A stretch of DNA of 64,000 bases from the NCBI RefSeq assembly GCF_002217285.1, contig NZ_MUGW01000020.1, positions 1-64,000 on the forward strand, given 5' to 3'. The notes under the pieces are model-generated. The model made no database searches. It was not told where the DNA came from and saw only the letters and a list, made by a program, of their open reading frames with translations. Each line of letters begins with the position of its first letter. The stretch's first letter is position 1. A program made the translations under genes and the position numbers. Below, piece after piece: positions 1-6,767 of this stretch. The stretch is from Flavobacterium hercynium. GTDB lineage: Bacteria; Bacteroidota; Bacteroidia; Flavobacteriales; Flavobacteriaceae.

Positions 1-16
1 GAGTTTTTGTAATTTT

Positions 17-66
17 GTGGTCCTTACGAACCTGTTTACGAACCATTTTTTGCAGGATTTGAAGAA
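17..66. repeat. Left-end repeat of cargo unit 1 (50 bp)
   Basis: This 50-bp sequence recurs at 2446-2495 with a single mismatch (C at 27, A in the second copy). It contains the nonamer TTACGAACC twice, 12 bp apart (24-32 and 36-44), which looks like a pair of recombinase-binding arms. The 16 bases to its left resemble the end of the terminator that flanks the tRNA-Val gene. An in-frame reading has stops on both sides, so it is not an intact gene tail. I infer an element end or attachment-site arm. Confidence 0.6.
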
Positions 67-190
67 GCTTTCAAGCAAGTAGTTTTAAGTAAAATTGATT
101 AAGAGATATTTTCATATCTTAGCCTGTCAGAAATGACTATTTTTAGTCGTAATATAAAAATTAAGAGAGTAAAAAAATAAAATTGCTTAA
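67..190 (+). promoter_or_regulatory. Leader of the AraC-type gene with two small inverted repeats
   Basis: Two short inverted repeats sit in front of the regulator gene: AGATAT-N4-ATATCT at 104-119 and GACTA-TTTT-TAGTC at 135-148. They may be operator half-sites or leader hairpins. No clear TAnnTTTG promoter was found here. Confidence 0.3.
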
Positions 191-1351
191 ATGGATAGTT
201 TCAATTTTCAAAAGACCATCGCAATAATTTCTGTATTTATTTTATTTCTTCTTATTATATTTTTATTGACAGCCGATTCCAATAAAAAACTATCGAATCG
301 ACTTTTTGCAGGGTATCTCATTCTTACTGCTGTTGATGCCAGCGGGGCTTTTATTTCCAACACTATTATTTCCATTCACACAAGTATAGAAGTTTTTAGA
401 TGGACGATGATTTTATTGAATATCCCCCTCTTTTATGTATATGTGTTGTCGCTTTGTTATGAAGATTTTCAATTGAAGACAAAATATTTACTGCACTGCA
501 TTCCATTTGTGGTCCTTAACTTAATTTTAGTTTTTAGAATCTATTCAAATGAATTCGATAAAAGATTTTTTTTCAGACATCATTCCGAAACTGCTGAAAT
601 GATAATTTTTCAAATTATGATTGAAGTGCAATATTTTTTATACGTTATAATGATCATTTCGTTGTTAAAAAAGTATAAAAAAATCTATCTCGAAAATAAT
701 TCGTTTTCTACTAATTCCGTTTATAAATGGCTATTTCAAATAACAATTGTATTTGCAATAGTTCACTATTTCGGGACTTTTAAAAATATTCTACGATATA
801 CAGATTATCATCAACTTTTGATATTTGTTAACGGCTTTTTAGAAATCATTGCATTGATAGCAATAAGTTGGTTTGTTTTACAATCGCTTAAATATTCAGA
901 ATTTTTTAAAGGAATAACTTCTGAAGTAGAATTAGTAAAAGGCTTTACCAAAACACATATTCCGAAAACCTTAATTCAGGAAGAAAAGAATAACCATAGT
1001 ATTATCAATTTTCAAGTTGAAATGCTAAAGAAATATATGATTGAAAAAAAACCTTATTTAGATCCATCACTTTCATTGCAAAATTTGGCTTCACAAATAA
1101 ATATGCCAGCTCGTGAATTATCGATTTTGGTTAATTCAAATATGAATATGCGTTTTTTTGATTTTGTAAATCAATATCGTATTGAAAATGCAATGGAATT
1201 ATTACAAAATCATTCTAAAAGCGATTTAACGGCTTTAGAAATTCTGTACAAAGTAGGTTTTAATTCAAAATCATCATTTAATACTGCTTTTAAAAAACAT
1301 ACTTCTTTGACACCTAGTGAATATAGAAAAACTTATTCTAAAATTTATTAG
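191..1351 (+). CDS. AraC-family regulator with N-terminal membrane domain
   Basis: A 386-residue protein. The first ~235 residues hold about seven hydrophobic segments. After a linker, residues ~275-386 form an AraC/XylS double helix-turn-helix domain; the last ~45 residues read like the second HTH and the family signature (VGFNSKSSFNTAFKKHTSLTPSEY). This membrane-HTH architecture is common in Flavobacteriia and is thought to couple a signal in the envelope to transcription. The ligand is unknown. It is followed at 144 bp by a secreted aspartic-protease-like gene in the same orientation. The two form the cargo of the first repeat-bounded unit beside tRNA-Val, so the target may be local. Confidence 0.85.
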   Translation: MDSFNFQKTIAIISVFILFLLIIFLLTADSNKKLSNRLFAGYLILTAVDASGAFISNTIISIHTSIEVFRWTMILLNIPLFYVYVLSLCYEDFQLKTKYLLHCIPFVVLNLILVFRIYSNEFDKRFFFRHHSETAEMIIFQIMIEVQYFLYVIMIISLLKKYKKIYLENNSFSTNSVYKWLFQITIVFAIVHYFGTFKNILRYTDYHQLLIFVNGFLEIIALIAISWFVLQSLKYSEFFKGITSEVELVKGFTKTHIPKTLIQEEKNNHSIINFQVEMLKKYMIEKKPYLDPSLSLQNLASQINMPARELSILVNSNMNMRFFDFVNQYRIENAMELLQNHSKSDLTALEILYKVGFNSKSSFNTAFKKHTSLTPSEYRKTYSKIY

Positions 1352-1494
1352 ATAAAATTAGTGATTATTTGGTTCGACTTCATGAAATCGGTCGTTTTGC
1401 AGCAGATAATAAATCAAATTTGCTTCCAATTAAAGACAATATTGTCTGAACGGGATAATGCTGAAAACCAAATTTAGAGTAAGCAAAAAGAATT

Positions 1495-2301
1495 ATGAAA
1501 ACAAAAAAAACAGTATTTAGTCTGCTGTTCGCGTGCATTGCTATTTCCAGTTTTGCGCAAGATACCATTCAACTTAAAGCGTATGTTGAAAACATGAAAA
1601 CAATAGATGTTTTCATTGAAGGGAAAAAATATAATTTTCTCTTTGATACTGGTGGCGCTGATACGTTCATTTCTCCGGAGATTGCAAAATCTTTAAATAA
1701 AGAAATATACGGCAGTATTACAGGGTTTAGAATGAGTGGCGAAATAATTAAGGCAAAAAAAGCAAATGACATTGCACTTACAATAGGAACAACAAAACTA
1801 CTTCATAAAACAGTTAGTGTTTGGGATTTAATGAGTATTCTTCCTAAAGATTTTTCAAGAATTGATGGCATAATATCTCTTAAATCCTTTGAGGAAAATG
1901 TTCTGACTATTGATCTCTCTAAAAATATTGTAATTGTCGAAAATAAAAATTCTGCTAAAAAGAAGATAAAAGGAAAATTGCCTTTAAAAACGAGATTTGC
2001 AAACGGTCTGGAAGGATCAGAGCTGAATATATTTTTTGGTATACCAAAGGACAAAAATCTTTATTGGTTTCTTTTTGATTCAGGAAACAGCGGTCCGCTA
2101 CTTCTTTCACAAGAAAGTGCTGAAATTTGGAAAGTGCAAAATGAAAAAAATCAGGAATCAGAATTTATCATTGGTGAAAAAAAACTTAGAATAAAACCTT
2201 TCGTCAGAGACATAATTTATGACGGGGTTCTCAATTTCGAAGCAATTAGTAATTATGTTTTTACAATTGATTTAAGAAACAAAGAAGTTTGGATTAATTA
2301 A
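1495..2301 (+). CDS. Secreted retropepsin-like aspartic protease family protein
   Basis: 268 residues with a signal peptide (1-21, ending SSFAQ). Two pepsin-type motifs are visible: FDTGG with Asp51 and FDSGN with Asp195, about 145 residues apart. The protein therefore looks like a two-lobe, single-chain aspartyl protease of the kind common in Bacteroidota. Hydrophobic stretches after each motif fit the usual psi-loop. It is likely periplasmic or surface-exposed. The gene follows the membrane AraC gene and ends just before the terminator-containing repeat at 2317-2445. The substrate is unknown. Confidence 0.75.
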   Translation: MKTKKTVFSLLFACIAISSFAQDTIQLKAYVENMKTIDVFIEGKKYNFLFDTGGADTFISPEIAKSLNKEIYGSITGFRMSGEIIKAKKANDIALTIGTTKLLHKTVSVWDLMSILPKDFSRIDGIISLKSFEENVLTIDLSKNIVIVENKNSAKKKIKGKLPLKTRFANGLEGSELNIFFGIPKDKNLYWFLFDSGNSGPLLLSQESAEIWKVQNEKNQESEFIIGEKKLRIKPFVRDIIYDGVLNFEAISNYVFTIDLRNKEVWIN

Positions 2302-2316
2302 AAACCGATTGTTTAA

Positions 2317-2445
2317 ACCTTAAGTTCTTCGAATCACTAATCCCTGTGAATTTAGGCACTGAGGAATATTCTAAAAGTTCTAAGGTAACTTTCGAACCAA
2401 AATAAACCTCCAAAATCAAATGACTTTGGAGGTTTATAAATTATA
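2317..2445. repeat. Right-end repeat of cargo unit 1
   Basis: This imperfect repeat of ~130 bp matches 5155-5282. Shared blocks are ACCTTAAG, TTCGAATCA, TTTCGAACCAAAA, and then a 32-bp identical terminator hairpin. The spacing from ACCTTAAG to the hairpin is 87 and 88 bp in the two copies, although the bases between have diverged. In the second copy the block abuts the CCA end of tRNA-Val. I infer a duplicated tRNA 3'-flank, as expected for an element end created by integration at the tRNA. Confidence 0.65.
2404..2435. terminator. Terminator-like hairpin, copy 1
   Basis: Perfect 11-bp stem (AAACCTCCAAA at 2404-2414 with TTTGGAGGTTT at 2425-2435) around a 10-base loop. It can end the aspartic-protease transcript. 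It is identical in stem and loop to the hairpin at 5243-5274 beside tRNA-Val. Confidence 0.75.
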
Positions 2446-2495
2446 GTGGTCCTTAAGAACCTGTTTACGAACCATTTTTTGCAGGATTTGAAGAA
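2446..2495. repeat. Left-end repeat of cargo unit 2 (50 bp)
   Basis: Second copy of the sequence at 17-66, with 49 of 50 bases the same. It directly follows the terminator-containing repeat and precedes the Cys-rich gene, so the boundary between units 1 and 2 lies near 2445. Confidence 0.6.
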
Positions 2496-2544
2496 ACTTA
2501 TAGCTAAATAAGTTACTAATGAATTTTATATCTAAATTTGTTAT

Positions 2545-2868
2545 GTGAAAATACTCGTAACAATATTGTCTTTTATTGTACTGCTTCTTTCGACAGTACC
2601 TTGTTCTGCATTTACTAAACACTCAAAATGTAGTGTTGAAAAAAATTGCGAGAATGATTCACATGACTGCGGTAAGGAGTGCAATGGAAAATGTTCTCCA
2701 TTTTATTCATGCGGAACCTGCGTGGGTTTTACCATAAACTCTAATTCTGTAATTATCACTGAAAAATTAGAATTCATTATCGAAGAAGCGCAACAGACAT
2801 TAAGTTACAATAAGTTTGTAGATTCTTCTTTTTTCTGTAAAATTTGGCAACCTCCTAAAACTTCTTAA
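2545..2868 (+). CDS. Small secreted Cys-rich protein (DUF6660-like)
   Basis: 107 residues starting at GTG (an overlapping ATG at 2543 is followed at once by TGA). Residues 1-22 form a signal peptide. The mature part is rich in cysteine and in acidic/His residues (CSVEKNCEN, HDCGKECNGKC, SCGTC). Small proteins of this kind, DUF6660 in my recollection, commonly precede TonB receptor genes in Flavobacteriia. The next gene, 72 bp away, is such a receptor, so the pair probably works together. A role in metal handling is inferred only from the Cys/His/Asp content. Confidence 0.55.
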   Translation: MKILVTILSFIVLLLSTVPCSAFTKHSKCSVEKNCENDSHDCGKECNGKCSPFYSCGTCVGFTINSNSVIITEKLEFIIEEAQQTLSYNKFVDSSFFCKIWQPPKTS

Positions 2869-2940
2869 TTTAAACAATTTTAGCCCGCTTAATTTATTAT
2901 TATGCAGGCTCATTATCTATATTAATTTAAGAAATCACAA

Positions 2941-5118
2941 ATGTTTAAATATATTTTATTAATTGTGGCAATAGTATCTATTGGCACTGTACAGGCACAG
3001 AATACAATCAAATTCCATATAAACAATGCTGTAACTAATGAACCTGTAAAAGGTGCAACTGCAAAAATTGAAGAAACAAATTCCATTTTCAAATCTGACA
3101 ATGATGGTAATATCATTCTTGAAAATCTTAAAAACGGAAATTATACCTTGTCTATCTCAATAGAAGGTTACGTGCCAAACAGAATACTTTTTAAAGTACC
3201 TTCAACTGCTAATTTTATAGAAATCGCATTGCAAAGCGAAGACGAAGAGGCTGAAGAAATGGAAGAAATAATTGTTACTTCAACCAGAGGAACAAGAACA
3301 ATTAGCAATATTCCGACTAGAGTAGAATTTATTGCTGGGGAAGAATTGGAAGAAAAAGCCAATATGAAACCAGGCGATATTCGCATGATGCTTAATGAAA
3401 GTACTGGAATCCAAACCCAACAGACTTCTGCAACTTCTGGTAACTCTTCCATCAGGATTCAAGGATTAGATGGTCGATATACCCAAATATTAAAAGATGG
3501 ATTTCCAATCTACTCAGGAGCTTCAAGCGGACTGGGATTACTCCAGACTCCTCCATTAGATTTAAAACAAGTTGAAATAATAAAAGGTTCTGCTTCTACT
3601 CTTTATGGCGGAGGAGCAATTGCAGGTTTGGTCAATCTTGTGTCTAAAACTCCGACCGAAGAAAGAGAACTACGATTTTTAATTAATGGAACCTCTGCTC
3701 TTGGTTTGGATATCAATGGATTTTATTCCCAGCAGTTTAACAAAATTGGATTAACCGTTTTTGCGTCCCATGATCGAAACGCACCATATGATCCTGCTGA
3801 TATACAATTAACTGCTATTCCGAAATTTGAACGTTTTAATTTTAATCCAAAGCTATTTGTAAATTTTAATGAAAACACTAAACTAAATTTTGGTATAAAC
3901 ACCGTCTTTGAAAATCGTATAGGTGGAAATATTGATTATATTAAAGATGAAAACAAATATCCTGGCAGTTACTTCGAAAGAAATAAAACCCAGAGAATAA
4001 GTACTCAGTTTGCGTTAACTCATAAATTCAATGAGAAAGAATCTTTAACTATTAAAAACAGTTTTAACAATTTCAGCCGTGTTATCACGATTCCTGATTA
4101 CGTTTTTGACGGCTTGCAAAATAGTACCTTTTCTGAAATCAGCTATTCTAAAAATGGTGAAATTGCAGAATGGGTTGCCGGGGGAAATTTATATACCGAC
4201 AATTTTACTGAAAATAGTCAGGCCTCTTTTCCTTTAAGAAACTATAACCAGATTACATACGGTGCTTTCCTTCAAAATACCGTGAAAGCTAAAGAATGGC
4301 TGGAAATAGAAACAGGTCTAAGAGGCGATTATGTTATTGATTATGGGTTCTCACTGCTTCCAAGAGTTTCGGCTTTATTTAAAATTAGTTCTAAGTTTAC
4401 ATCTCGAATTGGAGGAGGTTTGGGCTATAAAACCCCTGCTATTTTTACTGAAGAAAGTGAACGCATACAGTATCAAAATGTTCTTCCTATTAACAGTGAT
4501 TTTAATAAACTTGAAAAAAGTTACGGTTTTAATTTTGATGTAAATTATAAAACTAAAATTACAGAAGATCTTTCCTTATCATGGAATCAGTTATTTTTCT
4601 ACACCAATGTCGATAATCCTTTGATATTAAACCCTCTTCCTGATAACATTTATCAGTTTGTAAACGTAAACGGATATTTGGACACTAAAGGAACTGAAAC
4701 AAACATGAAATTAGGATATAAAGATTTTAAGTTGTTTCTAGGTTATACCTACACAGATGCATCGATAGATTCTAATGGAGTAAAATCTCAAAACCCTTTA
4801 ACAGCTAAACACAGATTAAATAATGTTTTGATGTACGAAGTTGAAGAAAAATGGAAAGCTGGTTTAGAAGCATACTATTACAGTTCTCAAAAATTAAGTG
4901 ACGGCACAACAGGAAGAGACTACTGGATTTTTGGTTTTATGGCGGAAAGACTTTGGGAGAATTTTTCAGTTTATGCCAATTTCGAAAACTTTACAGACAC
5001 TAGGCAAACCAAATTTGGAAGCATATATACAGGAACTATTACAAATCCCGTTTTCAAAGATATCTATGCACCGTTAGACGGATTTGTAGTTAATGCAGGT
5101 ATCAAAATTAAAATTTAA
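2941..5118 (+). CDS. TonB-dependent outer-membrane receptor with carboxypeptidase-like N-domain
   Basis: 725 residues. Signal peptide 1-20 (VQAQ). A carboxypeptidase regulatory-like beta domain spans ~22-100, followed by an acidic linker (EDEEAEEMEE) and the TonB-box-like segment EIIVTSTRG. A plug domain at ~112-225 holds VEIIKGSASTLYGGGAIAG, and a ~500-residue beta-barrel ends in an aromatic-rich strand and KIKI. It imports a substrate across the outer membrane using the ExbB-ExbD-TonB complex, which is also encoded in this window. There is no SusD partner; the neighbour is the Cys-rich protein, which argues for a small ligand such as a metal complex rather than a glycan. It is cargo of the second repeat-bounded unit. 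Confidence 0.85.
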   Translation: MFKYILLIVAIVSIGTVQAQNTIKFHINNAVTNEPVKGATAKIEETNSIFKSDNDGNIILENLKNGNYTLSISIEGYVPNRILFKVPSTANFIEIALQSEDEEAEEMEEIIVTSTRGTRTISNIPTRVEFIAGEELEEKANMKPGDIRMMLNESTGIQTQQTSATSGNSSIRIQGLDGRYTQILKDGFPIYSGASSGLGLLQTPPLDLKQVEIIKGSASTLYGGGAIAGLVNLVSKTPTEERELRFLINGTSALGLDINGFYSQQFNKIGLTVFASHDRNAPYDPADIQLTAIPKFERFNFNPKLFVNFNENTKLNFGINTVFENRIGGNIDYIKDENKYPGSYFERNKTQRISTQFALTHKFNEKESLTIKNSFNNFSRVITIPDYVFDGLQNSTFSEISYSKNGEIAEWVAGGNLYTDNFTENSQASFPLRNYNQITYGAFLQNTVKAKEWLEIETGLRGDYVIDYGFSLLPRVSALFKISSKFTSRIGGGLGYKTPAIFTEESERIQYQNVLPINSDFNKLEKSYGFNFDVNYKTKITEDLSLSWNQLFFYTNVDNPLILNPLPDNIYQFVNVNGYLDTKGTETNMKLGYKDFKLFLGYTYTDASIDSNGVKSQNPLTAKHRLNNVLMYEVEEKWKAGLEAYYYSSQKLSDGTTGRDYWIFGFMAERLWENFSVYANFENFTDTRQTKFGSIYTGTITNPVFKDIYAPLDGFVVNAGIKIKI

Positions 5119-5154
5119 GTTTAAAAACTATTTGTATTTATCGTAAACTTTTTG

Positions 5155-5282
5155 ACCTTAAGGTATTCGAATCAAAAATCTCTGTAAAACCAATAGATGA
5201 AACGTGGTATATAAAAATGGCACGTAATTTTCGAACCAAAAAAAACCTCCAAAATCAAATGACTTTGGAGGTTTCTAAATTT
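5155..5282. repeat. tRNA-Val 3' flank, second copy of right-end repeat
   Basis: The partner of 2317-2445, lying directly against the CCA end of tRNA-Val. Alignment around the core reads GGAGGTTT-n-TAAATT followed by GTGG or GGTGG in both copies. A shortened match sits at 1-20. These are three att-like junctions. Confidence 0.65.
5243..5274 (-). terminator. tRNA-Val terminator hairpin, copy 2
   Basis: Stem AAACCTCCAAA (5243-5253) with TTTGGAGGTTT (5264-5274), just beyond the 3' end of the minus-strand tRNA. On the minus strand it is followed by a run of T, so it is a good intrinsic terminator for the tRNA. It can also stop the TonB receptor transcript from the other side. Confidence 0.8.
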
Positions 5283-5360
5283 TGGTGGGCGATGAGGGGT
5301 TCGAACCCCCGACCCCCTCGGTGTAAACGAGGTGCTCTGAACCAGCTGAGCTAATCGCCC
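5283..5360 (-). tRNA. tRNA-Val (anticodon TAC)
   Basis: The minus strand folds into a full cloverleaf. The acceptor stem GGGCGAT pairs with ATCGCCC, the D-arm contains AGCTCAGCTGGTT, and the anticodon stem CCTCG/CGAGG encloses loop TTTACAC with anticodon TAC. The T-arm carries GGTTCGAACCCC. An encoded CCA lies at 5283-5285, so the mature body is 5286-5360. tRNA 3' ends are common integration sites, and the flanking repeats suggest this one has been used as such. Confidence 0.97.
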
Positions 5361-5540: not shown

Positions 5541-6767
5541 TTACGATAAAGGCAATTCCGCAACAACAAAAGTACTTCCGCCTACATAAATAAAATCATT
5601 TTCAGAAGCATTATTCTTTGCTTCTAGAAACGCCGCAGCTACAGAATCGTATTTTTCACCTAATAAACCATGAGTTTTCGCAGCACTTTGTAAAATCTCA
5701 GTAGCTAAGCCACGGGAAGAATCAGGTCTGCAAAAATAATATTGAGCGTTTTTAGGAAAAAGAGGCAAAATAGAATCCAGGTCTTTGTCGTTTACAACTC
5801 CCAGAACAATATGCAGTTTTTCGAAAGTCCCTTTCTGAATCTGGTTCAGCACAACAGTCAAACCATGTTTGTTATGAGCGGTGTCGCAAATTATTTTAGG
5901 CGAAGAACCCAATTGCTGCCATCTTCCTTGCAATCCTGTGTTTTTAACAACATGCAGTAATCCCGATTTTAGCTGATCATCCGAAACTTTAAATTCATTT
6001 TGTGTGTTAAGTATTGCGATGGTTTGCTGAACTGTTTTTTTATTATGAAACTGATAATCGCCAATTAGGTCAGAAGCAAATACATCTATAACCAGTTCAG
6101 AGGCAAAATAAATGGGAGCGCTTTTTTCTTCGGCTTTAGCCAAAAAAACAGGCTTCGTTTCTGCGGTATATTCGCCAATAACAACCGGAACGTTTTGTTT
6201 AATAATTCCCGCTTTCTCTCCGGCAATTGCCTGCGTTGTATTTCCTAAAAACTGAGTGTGATCTAAATCGATATTCGTAATAACAGACACCAAAGGCGTA
6301 ATAATGTTTGTCGCGTCCAATCTTCCGCCCAGACCCACTTCTATAATCGCAATGTCTACTTTTTCTGAAACAAAATAATCAAACGCCAGGCCAACAGACA
6401 TTTCGAAAAAACTCATATCATTGGCTTCAAAAAAAGATTTGTGCTCGGCGATGAACTCACAAACAAAATCTTCAGAAATATCTTCGCCATTAATTTTAAT
6501 TCTTTCTCTAAAATCTTTTAGGTGAGGCGATGTGTATAATCCTACTTTATATCCGGCTTCCTGTAGAACGGAGGCAAGCATGTGCGAGGTCGAACCTTTT
6601 CCGTTTGTTCCCGCTACGTGAATGCACTTTAAAACGTTCTCAGGATTGCCAAGATGCGCAGAAAGCAACCTAATATTGGTTAGGTCTTCTTTGTACGCAG
6701 AAGCCCCCTGTAATTGATACATTGGCAATTGATTAAACATCCAATTTGTGGTGTCTTGATAGTTCAT
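5541..6767 (-). CDS. folC: Bifunctional folylpolyglutamate/dihydrofolate synthase
   Basis: 408 residues, normal length for FolC. The Mur-ligase-type P-loop is GTNGKGS (53-59), the family motif GLGGRLDATN lies at 145-154, and the substrate loop YTSPHLKDFRERI is at 78-90. The enzyme joins dihydropteroate or tetrahydrofolate to glutamate using ATP in the cytoplasm. It is transcribed away from exbB, with 131 bp between the starts. That spacer carries a 10-bp inverted repeat at 6798-6840. Confidence 0.95.
   Translation of the reverse strand: MNYQDTTNWMFNQLPMYQLQGASAYKEDLTNIRLLSAHLGNPENVLKCIHVAGTNGKGSTSHMLASVLQEAGYKVGLYTSPHLKDFRERIKINGEDISEDFVCEFIAEHKSFFEANDMSFFEMSVGLAFDYFVSEKVDIAIIEVGLGGRLDATNIITPLVSVITNIDLDHTQFLGNTTQAIAGEKAGIIKQNVPVVIGEYTAETKPVFLAKAEEKSAPIYFASELVIDVFASDLIGDYQFHNKKTVQQTIAILNTQNEFKVSDDQLKSGLLHVVKNTGLQGRWQQLGSSPKIICDTAHNKHGLTVVLNQIQKGTFEKLHIVLGVVNDKDLDSILPLFPKNAQYYFCRPDSSRGLATEILQSAAKTHGLLGEKYDSVAAAFLEAKNNASENDFIYVGGSTFVVAELPLS

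Follow-up and report, generated by a model that had tools for sequence, protein, structure and literature searches.

How can unrelated genes come to be stacked behind one tRNA gene between ends that are almost the same, and which enzyme would have put them there? This question is raised by the beginning of a 64,000-nucleotide stretch of the Flavobacterium hercynium genome, called the window in the following.

Layout of the array behind tRNA-Val

Behind tRNA-Val(tac) the window carries two tandem units of 2,429 bp (unit 1) and 2,837 bp (unit 2), each with a 52-bp sequence, the core, as its tRNA-distal end and a terminator block as its tRNA-proximal end. Base 1 of contig C15 is also the first base of the window, so the assembly breaks off the array on its left side. 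The features, with the basis of each call in brackets, are:

1..16, minus strand: end of a terminator-like sequence following core 1, cut at the contig start (sequence)
16..67, minus strand: core 1, predicted displaced half site for an integrase tail, tRNA-distal end of unit 1; opposite strand reads VVLTNLFTNHFLQDLKKLSSK and a stop (weight matrix, translation)
191..1351, plus strand: unit 1 cargo, AraC-type regulator, HTH_18 (ORF, Pfam)
1495..2301, plus strand: unit 1 cargo, aspartyl-protease-like protein, Asp_protease_2 (ORF, Pfam)
2312..2445, minus strand: terminator block T1, tRNA-proximal end of unit 1, hairpin at 2404-2435 (repeat comparison)
2445..2496, minus strand: core 2, tRNA-distal end of unit 2; opposite strand reads VVLKNLFTNHFLQDLKKLIAK and a stop (weight matrix, translation)
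2545..2868, plus strand: unit 2 cargo, Cys-rich protein, DUF6660 (ORF, Pfam)
2941..5118, plus strand: unit 2 cargo, TonB-dependent receptor (ORF, Pfam)
5150..5282, minus strand: terminator block T2, tRNA-proximal end of unit 2, hairpin at 5243-5274 (repeat comparison)
5283..5360, minus strand: tRNA-Val(tac), putative integration target (tRNA call)
5541..6767, minus strand: folC-like gene, presumably folC, chromosomal neighbour and anchor for the locus in other genomes (ORF)

A preliminary description of this DNA had reported the core as a 50-bp repeat, and the repeat is real, with one base differing between 17-66 and 2446-2495 (49/50 identical). It had also seen a recurrent block of about 130 bp, which holds for a 32-nt hairpin sequence identical in both copies (2404-2435 and 5243-5274) but not for the block throughout, since conservation is confined to its two ends: in the blocks preceding 2446 and 5283 a 65-nt stretch is 92% and a 39-nt stretch 79% identical. 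Positions 1-16, part of the stretch 1-20 taken there for a shortened match of the block's end, do look like the end of another terminator, and T2 indeed touches the tRNA gene. The left end of a unit and the end of the tRNA have few bases in common (GTGG). The units were rightly said to lack a recombinase, and they have no integration or transfer genes of their own (ORFs and Pfam: regulator, protease-like protein, DUF6660 and TonB receptor); an NTNH domain in the protease-like protein of unit 1 scored under the Pfam cut-off and was disregarded. Both ends of each unit show att-type sequences, the core on one side and a tRNA-terminator or core-terminator junction on the other, and alignments stop there.

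The folC-like neighbour was used to collect 80 named loci from Flavobacterium and near relatives, in 79 of which tRNA-Val was called. Between the window and F. aquidurense DSM 18293, unit 1 is 95.8–95.9% identical over about 2.43 kb (2,427 bp), and for the same pair folC reaches 78.0%, the flank pieces 78–84% and a 228-bp piece adjoining the tRNA 89%. This excess over folC of 17.9 points is the largest of 3,240 locus pairs, among which 17 blocks exceed folC by at least 7 points. On one side the homology of unit 1 stops at CCAC, and at its opposite end it takes in the core. The unit abuts tRNA-Val in F. aquidurense, while in the window unit 2 intervenes, so that the comparison proposed in the preliminary description yields an empty site for unit 2 or else its exact loss. 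Judged by these alignments, unit 1 has recently been transferred between species with exact ends. Another unit, shared by L148 and L271 (81.5%, 1,964 bp), has both ends within 10 bp of the junctions, and for L053/L074 and L135/L139 one unit end lies at the junction. Pairs from the same genome (at least 99% over 2.5 kb) had been removed from this comparison and duplicates remain (L108/L215/L270, L139/L078 and the loci with a large serine integrase, LSI); its 21 mixed endpoints are not equal to 21 events, and four unit cases were counted (window/L108, L148/L271, L053/L074 and L135/L139) besides the LSI cases.

The cargo of unit 2 is found at about 83% identity in G136, G322 and G179, which have cores of the tRNA-Arg type, and at 81% in G112. 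As its orientation to the cores is reversed in all four genomes, it was packaged more than once. The first genes behind tRNA-Val fall into 49 clusters among 72 loci, the largest having 5 members, and thus relatives do not carry the same genes in the same order, a pattern that would have spoken against mobile units. The earlier idea that such units have accreted at the tRNA 3' end agrees with the exact ends and the differing cargo.

The core family and its tRNA genes

Searching 2.0 Mb of related loci with a weight matrix of the core gave 49 places above 15 bits, some of them in duplicate loci, and the shuffled control reached a maximum of 9.4 bits (one mononucleotide shuffle per locus, one strand). 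Fifteen of the 80 folC-linked loci contain 23 such matches up to 10 kb beyond folC, and each of the 23 follows the tRNA downstream in the same strand orientation. When 397 genomes of the genus were searched with a sequence model of the core, 162 had a match (E 1e-3). Order-wide, 24 of the 48 matching genomes were from outside the genus, with a best E of 2.8e-5, near the cut-off, and the matches outside the genus are likely to be mostly noise.

Two subfamilies can be told apart by their ends: cores ending in GGACCAC or GCCCAC lie behind tRNA-Val, and those ending in GGTCAC occur in genomes where the core is downstream of tRNA-Arg(acg). Among the matches listed for 15 near-complete genomes, 25 of 27 cores lie on the same strand and at most 300 kb downstream of tRNA-Arg(acg) or tRNA-Val(tac), compared with a mean of 2.03 and a maximum of 8 for random placement (2,000 draws), a limit that was chosen after the distances were known and with some genome sizes rounded. 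Limits of 50 kb and 150 kb give 8/27 and 19/27 listed cores with random means of 0.40 and 1.15, respectively, where the cores of one genome are not independent, 20 of the 27 coming from eight genomes with at least two cores, and the genomes were chosen. The assignment of cores to tRNA-Arg(acg) or tRNA-Val(tac) agrees in 14 of the 15 genomes. Both exceptional cores belong to G112 and fit neither tRNA, one of them sitting 5 kb behind tRNA-Arg(tcg). That 25 of the 27 listed cores are tied to two tRNAs speaks against a dispersed element unrelated to tRNA genes, which the preliminary description had named as the other possibility.

A search for further cores in the window's genome, also suggested there, found one more copy (C37:30146-30200) in an array that extends up to a tRNA-Val-like sequence cut by the end of the contig; the start of C19 holds a second tRNA-Val. 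A 36-bit core-like match at C56:78-129 (L005:78-129), followed by terminator-like sequence, coincides with the 3' end of an open reading frame at the start of a contig and was left uncounted as a unit, and a further weak match lies at C40:1729-1756.

Locus L071 of strain MC2016-06 shows a row of units that have terminators and end in cores or core-like sequences; several of these units measure about 1 kb. One unit of the row (L071:19256-20212) codes for a SUKH/SMI1-KNR4 protein, whose family has been linked to toxin immunity. Some further peculiarities of the tRNA-Val loci are mentioned here for completeness. Pseudo-tRNA pieces, consisting of a tRNA-Val-like 3' part with an altered arm, form array boundaries in L006:13229-13304 (G000:C37), L096, L138, L139, L142 and L146, and the folC locus L063 has a tandem of three tRNA-Val genes with a spacing of 140 bp (L063:11408-11765). 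A short GIY-YIG-type ORF directly follows the tRNA-Val terminator at L080:12434-12703 (PF01541, a 35-residue piece), and similar starts, so that several species are concerned, were seen by eye behind tRNA-Val in L070, L099, L102, L104, L109, L111, L149 and C37 (L006:13517-13765). These ORFs may represent a second, unrelated kind of invader at tRNA-Val.

Large serine integrase genes, cores and terminators

Many core copies encode a coherent peptide on the opposite strand, namely VVLTNLFTNHFLQDLKK.. for the tRNA-Val type and VTLTEQFTNHFMNDLKKLAYFQVNL with a stop for the tRNA-Arg type; several other copies show frame breaks or stops. The codon-position entropy of the core is only weakly coding-like (0.78, 0.71, 0.89), so that its identity as a protein tail rests on LSI genes that enter cores and on joined element ends. 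Three loci provide such genes. At L203 an LSI with Resolvase and Recombinase domains, beside genes that we take to be of conjugation type, ends within a core with its stop four codons in. At L261 the LSI frame, which has one in-frame stop, runs into the core as LLSRE followed by VTATEQFTNHFMNDLKKLAYFQLNL and a stop, and a tRNA-integrated relative reads LLSRE followed by VTSTGFKPVTF and a stop. The C-terminal LSI fragment of L166, at a contig edge, runs into the core as SLM followed by VVHTVSFTNHFLQDLKKLALK and a stop, and a tRNA-integrated relative continues after SLM with VGDEGFEPPTPSV and a stop. Two elements offer both ends: in G102 a 93-kb element has its LSI at 373-375 kb, at a tRNA, and a core at 280.5 kb on the right strand, and in G114 the LSI lies at tRNA-Val with a core 16.9 kb off, again on the right strand. 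Joining the ends in silico yields an LSI gene with a core-encoded tail in both cases, and the joined tail of G102 nearly equals that of the contiguous L261 gene. From the geometry of these sequences we interpret the core as one half of attP, a half that codes for the integrase tail and would be displaced to the far end upon integration.

How LSI genes end was analysed for 39 distinct placeable 3' ends (from 42 rows, with L253, L257 and L261 appearing twice, and only alignments reaching residue 480). Thirty of them lie antisense in a tRNA 3' end, 3 in a core and 6 in neither, and the tRNA targets are Arg(acg) (12), Met (9), Leu (4), Val (2), other Arg (2) and Pro (1). A separate count found LSI ends in tRNA genes in 27/34 cases for the genus sets and in 19/27 for the order-wide set, L314 being scored as 'tRNA' merely since its frame stays open 1.2 kb further. 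Genes that run antisense into a tRNA 3' end have thereby lost the core-encoded tail. Relatives of the L203 LSI are present in 65 of 150 genomes (E 1e-10), and at E 1e-60 LSI relatives occur in 36 of 196 genomes of the order, the own genus included, and also outside of it. The helper elements of relatives have the LSI-type domains Resolvase, Recombinase and Zn-ribbon, with the Zn-ribbon of L203 under the cut-off.

For the window's genome the earlier claim of a recombinase encoded elsewhere is only weakly supported. The searches yielded the C-terminal part of an LSI at tRNA-Arg and, at tRNA-Leu, one distant match; an intact close relative was not found in this 101-contig assembly. Because the finds amount to this fragment and one distant match, LSI activity in this genome is doubtful.

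The 16.9-kb LSI element of G114, which contains a relaxase (PF03432) and an ApeA-like gene, adjoins a 2.5-kb unit. The ApeA-like HEPN protein (L152:2649-4052) belongs to a family linked to phage defence. A second, distant LSI, 25% identical to the first, enters the same folC-linked tRNA-Val in L054:11471-12994 and in L084, and a fragment of it adjoins a core in L254.

A terminator-like hairpin with a T-run follows 97 of 102 tRNA-Val ends, 62 of 92 cores and 18 of 1,500 random positions, and 30 of the 92 cores are without a terminator by this hairpin-plus-T rule. The 60 nt directly following the tRNA, LSI coding sequence on the opposite strand, form a hairpin in seven LSI elements (-14.6 to -22.7 kcal/mol); six of these also pass the rule and L266 fails it. 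It thus seems that the tRNA receives a new terminator from an incoming LSI element and that the previous terminator comes to lie behind the core. The stem of the T1 hairpin in the window is closer to T2 than to T1 of F. aquidurense, and therefore unit 1 may have been exchanged inside the terminator.

Origin of the array and related systems

With good confidence we regard the locus as a tandem array of integrase-less units behind tRNA-Val, resembling cis-mobilizable elements (CIMEs), that was built and spread by LSI-carrying elements (IMEs/ICEs). Integration at the tRNA would split the tail from the LSI gene and push the old tRNA terminator outward, giving the order tRNA, element, core, terminator. 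A later LSI element would insert at the same tRNA next to the resident unit, both could then leave or arrive jointly as a composite and insert in a new host, and upon exit of the LSI element alone the unit would remain as tRNA, terminator, cargo, core and old terminator. Units 1 and 2 would be such left-behind units, and unit 2, being nearer to the tRNA, was probably added last. Integration and excision by the LSI would suffice for this conservative account, and the G114 array, with an LSI element beside a 2.5-kb unit, has the configuration that composite transfer predicts.

Small units might also move singly in trans, when a circle with a core-terminator junction is joined to the junction of tRNA and resident terminator by the LSI of another element, in analogy to integron cassettes but with a serine integrase. 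Such a capture fits LSI-less units that occur singly and with exact ends at differing array positions, the rows of about 1-kb units in L071 and the same cargo in both tRNA-Val and tRNA-Arg arrays, but the composite transfer preferred here yields the same pattern, and a core-terminator junction has only one integrase-derived half, which would make the reaction attR-like x attB. This is not the usual LSI reaction, and we consider capture in trans unlikely. Equally unlikely in our estimation is its extension, in which circles are captured singly at tRNA-Val and the LSI tail, encoded by the core on the circle and antisense to the tRNA when integrated, changes on integration, which could switch the enzyme between integration and excision. 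A locus with no site-specific enzyme at present, where cores and terminators are repeats for RecA-type exchange behind the tRNA, would agree with terminator blocks sharing up to 130 bp and with the T1 stem difference as a trace of exchange within the terminator. As the tRNA-terminator and core-terminator junctions have hardly anything in common left of CCAC, and the cores are associated with LSI genes as well as with two tRNAs, we give this explanation very little weight.

The mover implied in the preliminary description was a tyrosine recombinase, and tRNA 3' ends are indeed given as the usual target of tyrosine integrases (excerpt of PMC4383910), with an island of this type behind tRNA-Arg in Riemerella (excerpt of PMC6764341). 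A tRNA 3' fragment as distal repeat is absent from both units, whose distal end is the core, and pseudo-tRNA boundaries occur elsewhere, as in C37. The boundary sequence is an LSI tail and not a tRNA repeat, so that tyrosine-recombinase islands are highly improbable here; with ends that match elements whose recombinase is an LSI, the enzyme type had probably been named wrongly. An integron-like or rAID-1-like reading, raised by the large arrays, was dropped once LSI genes appeared at the sites.

Integron gene cassettes are rows of small units, each with a recombination-type end, and in this respect they resemble the units described here; the recombinase type and the site differ. The nearest described system are the ssrA-specific islands of Dehalococcoides with the serine recombinase DsiB (PMC3146451). 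Going by excerpts of that report, the two systems have in common that the 3' end of a serine recombinase gene overlaps the RNA gene used as target (there also attL), that islands are lined up in tandem behind a single RNA gene, and that some islands lack an integration module, these being termed possible cis-mobilizable elements there. According to the same excerpts the Dehalococcoides target is the tmRNA gene (ssrA) instead of tRNA genes and the boundaries are 20-bp ssrA repeats, in contrast to the 52-bp integrase tail with few tRNA-identical bases and to units that can be as small as 1–3 kb with one to three genes. The accretion of CIMEs with ICEs/IMEs has been described (excerpt of PMC5704250), and like CIMEs the units have att-type ends, no genes for integration or transfer, and are stacked with integrase-bearing elements at one target. 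The tRNA-targeting cases in that excerpt use tyrosine integrases, and cis-mobilization of the units described here is a prediction. Unlike in both Dehalococcoides and CIMEs an integrase tail serves as the boundary mark and is also used as terminator. With SCC (CcrA/CcrB, named in an excerpt of PMC3146451) the arrays share a large serine recombinase, composite cassettes and one chromosomal site, but the target here is a tRNA and the LSI scores of 116.2 and 108.3 bits fall far short of the CcrB cut-off of 900 bits.

A description of such a system in Flavobacterium was not found in the open-licence PMC literature. What is new is that tRNA genes are targeted, that the tail of the integrase marks the boundary and serves as terminator, and that units can be very small; the principle of accretion and of CIMEs was already known. 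A statement from 2014 holds, in the excerpt at hand, that serine integrases were not known to specify tRNA genes (PMC4383910), contrary to the serine integrases found at tRNA genes here. The 3' end of the LSI gene combines coding sequence, a predicted att half and a predicted tRNA terminator, which makes the effect of integration on the enzyme directly testable, and the 52-bp signature allows integrase-less units to be found. With the core in 162 of 397 genomes, a widespread gene turnover in Flavobacterium is thereby tied to one type of enzyme.
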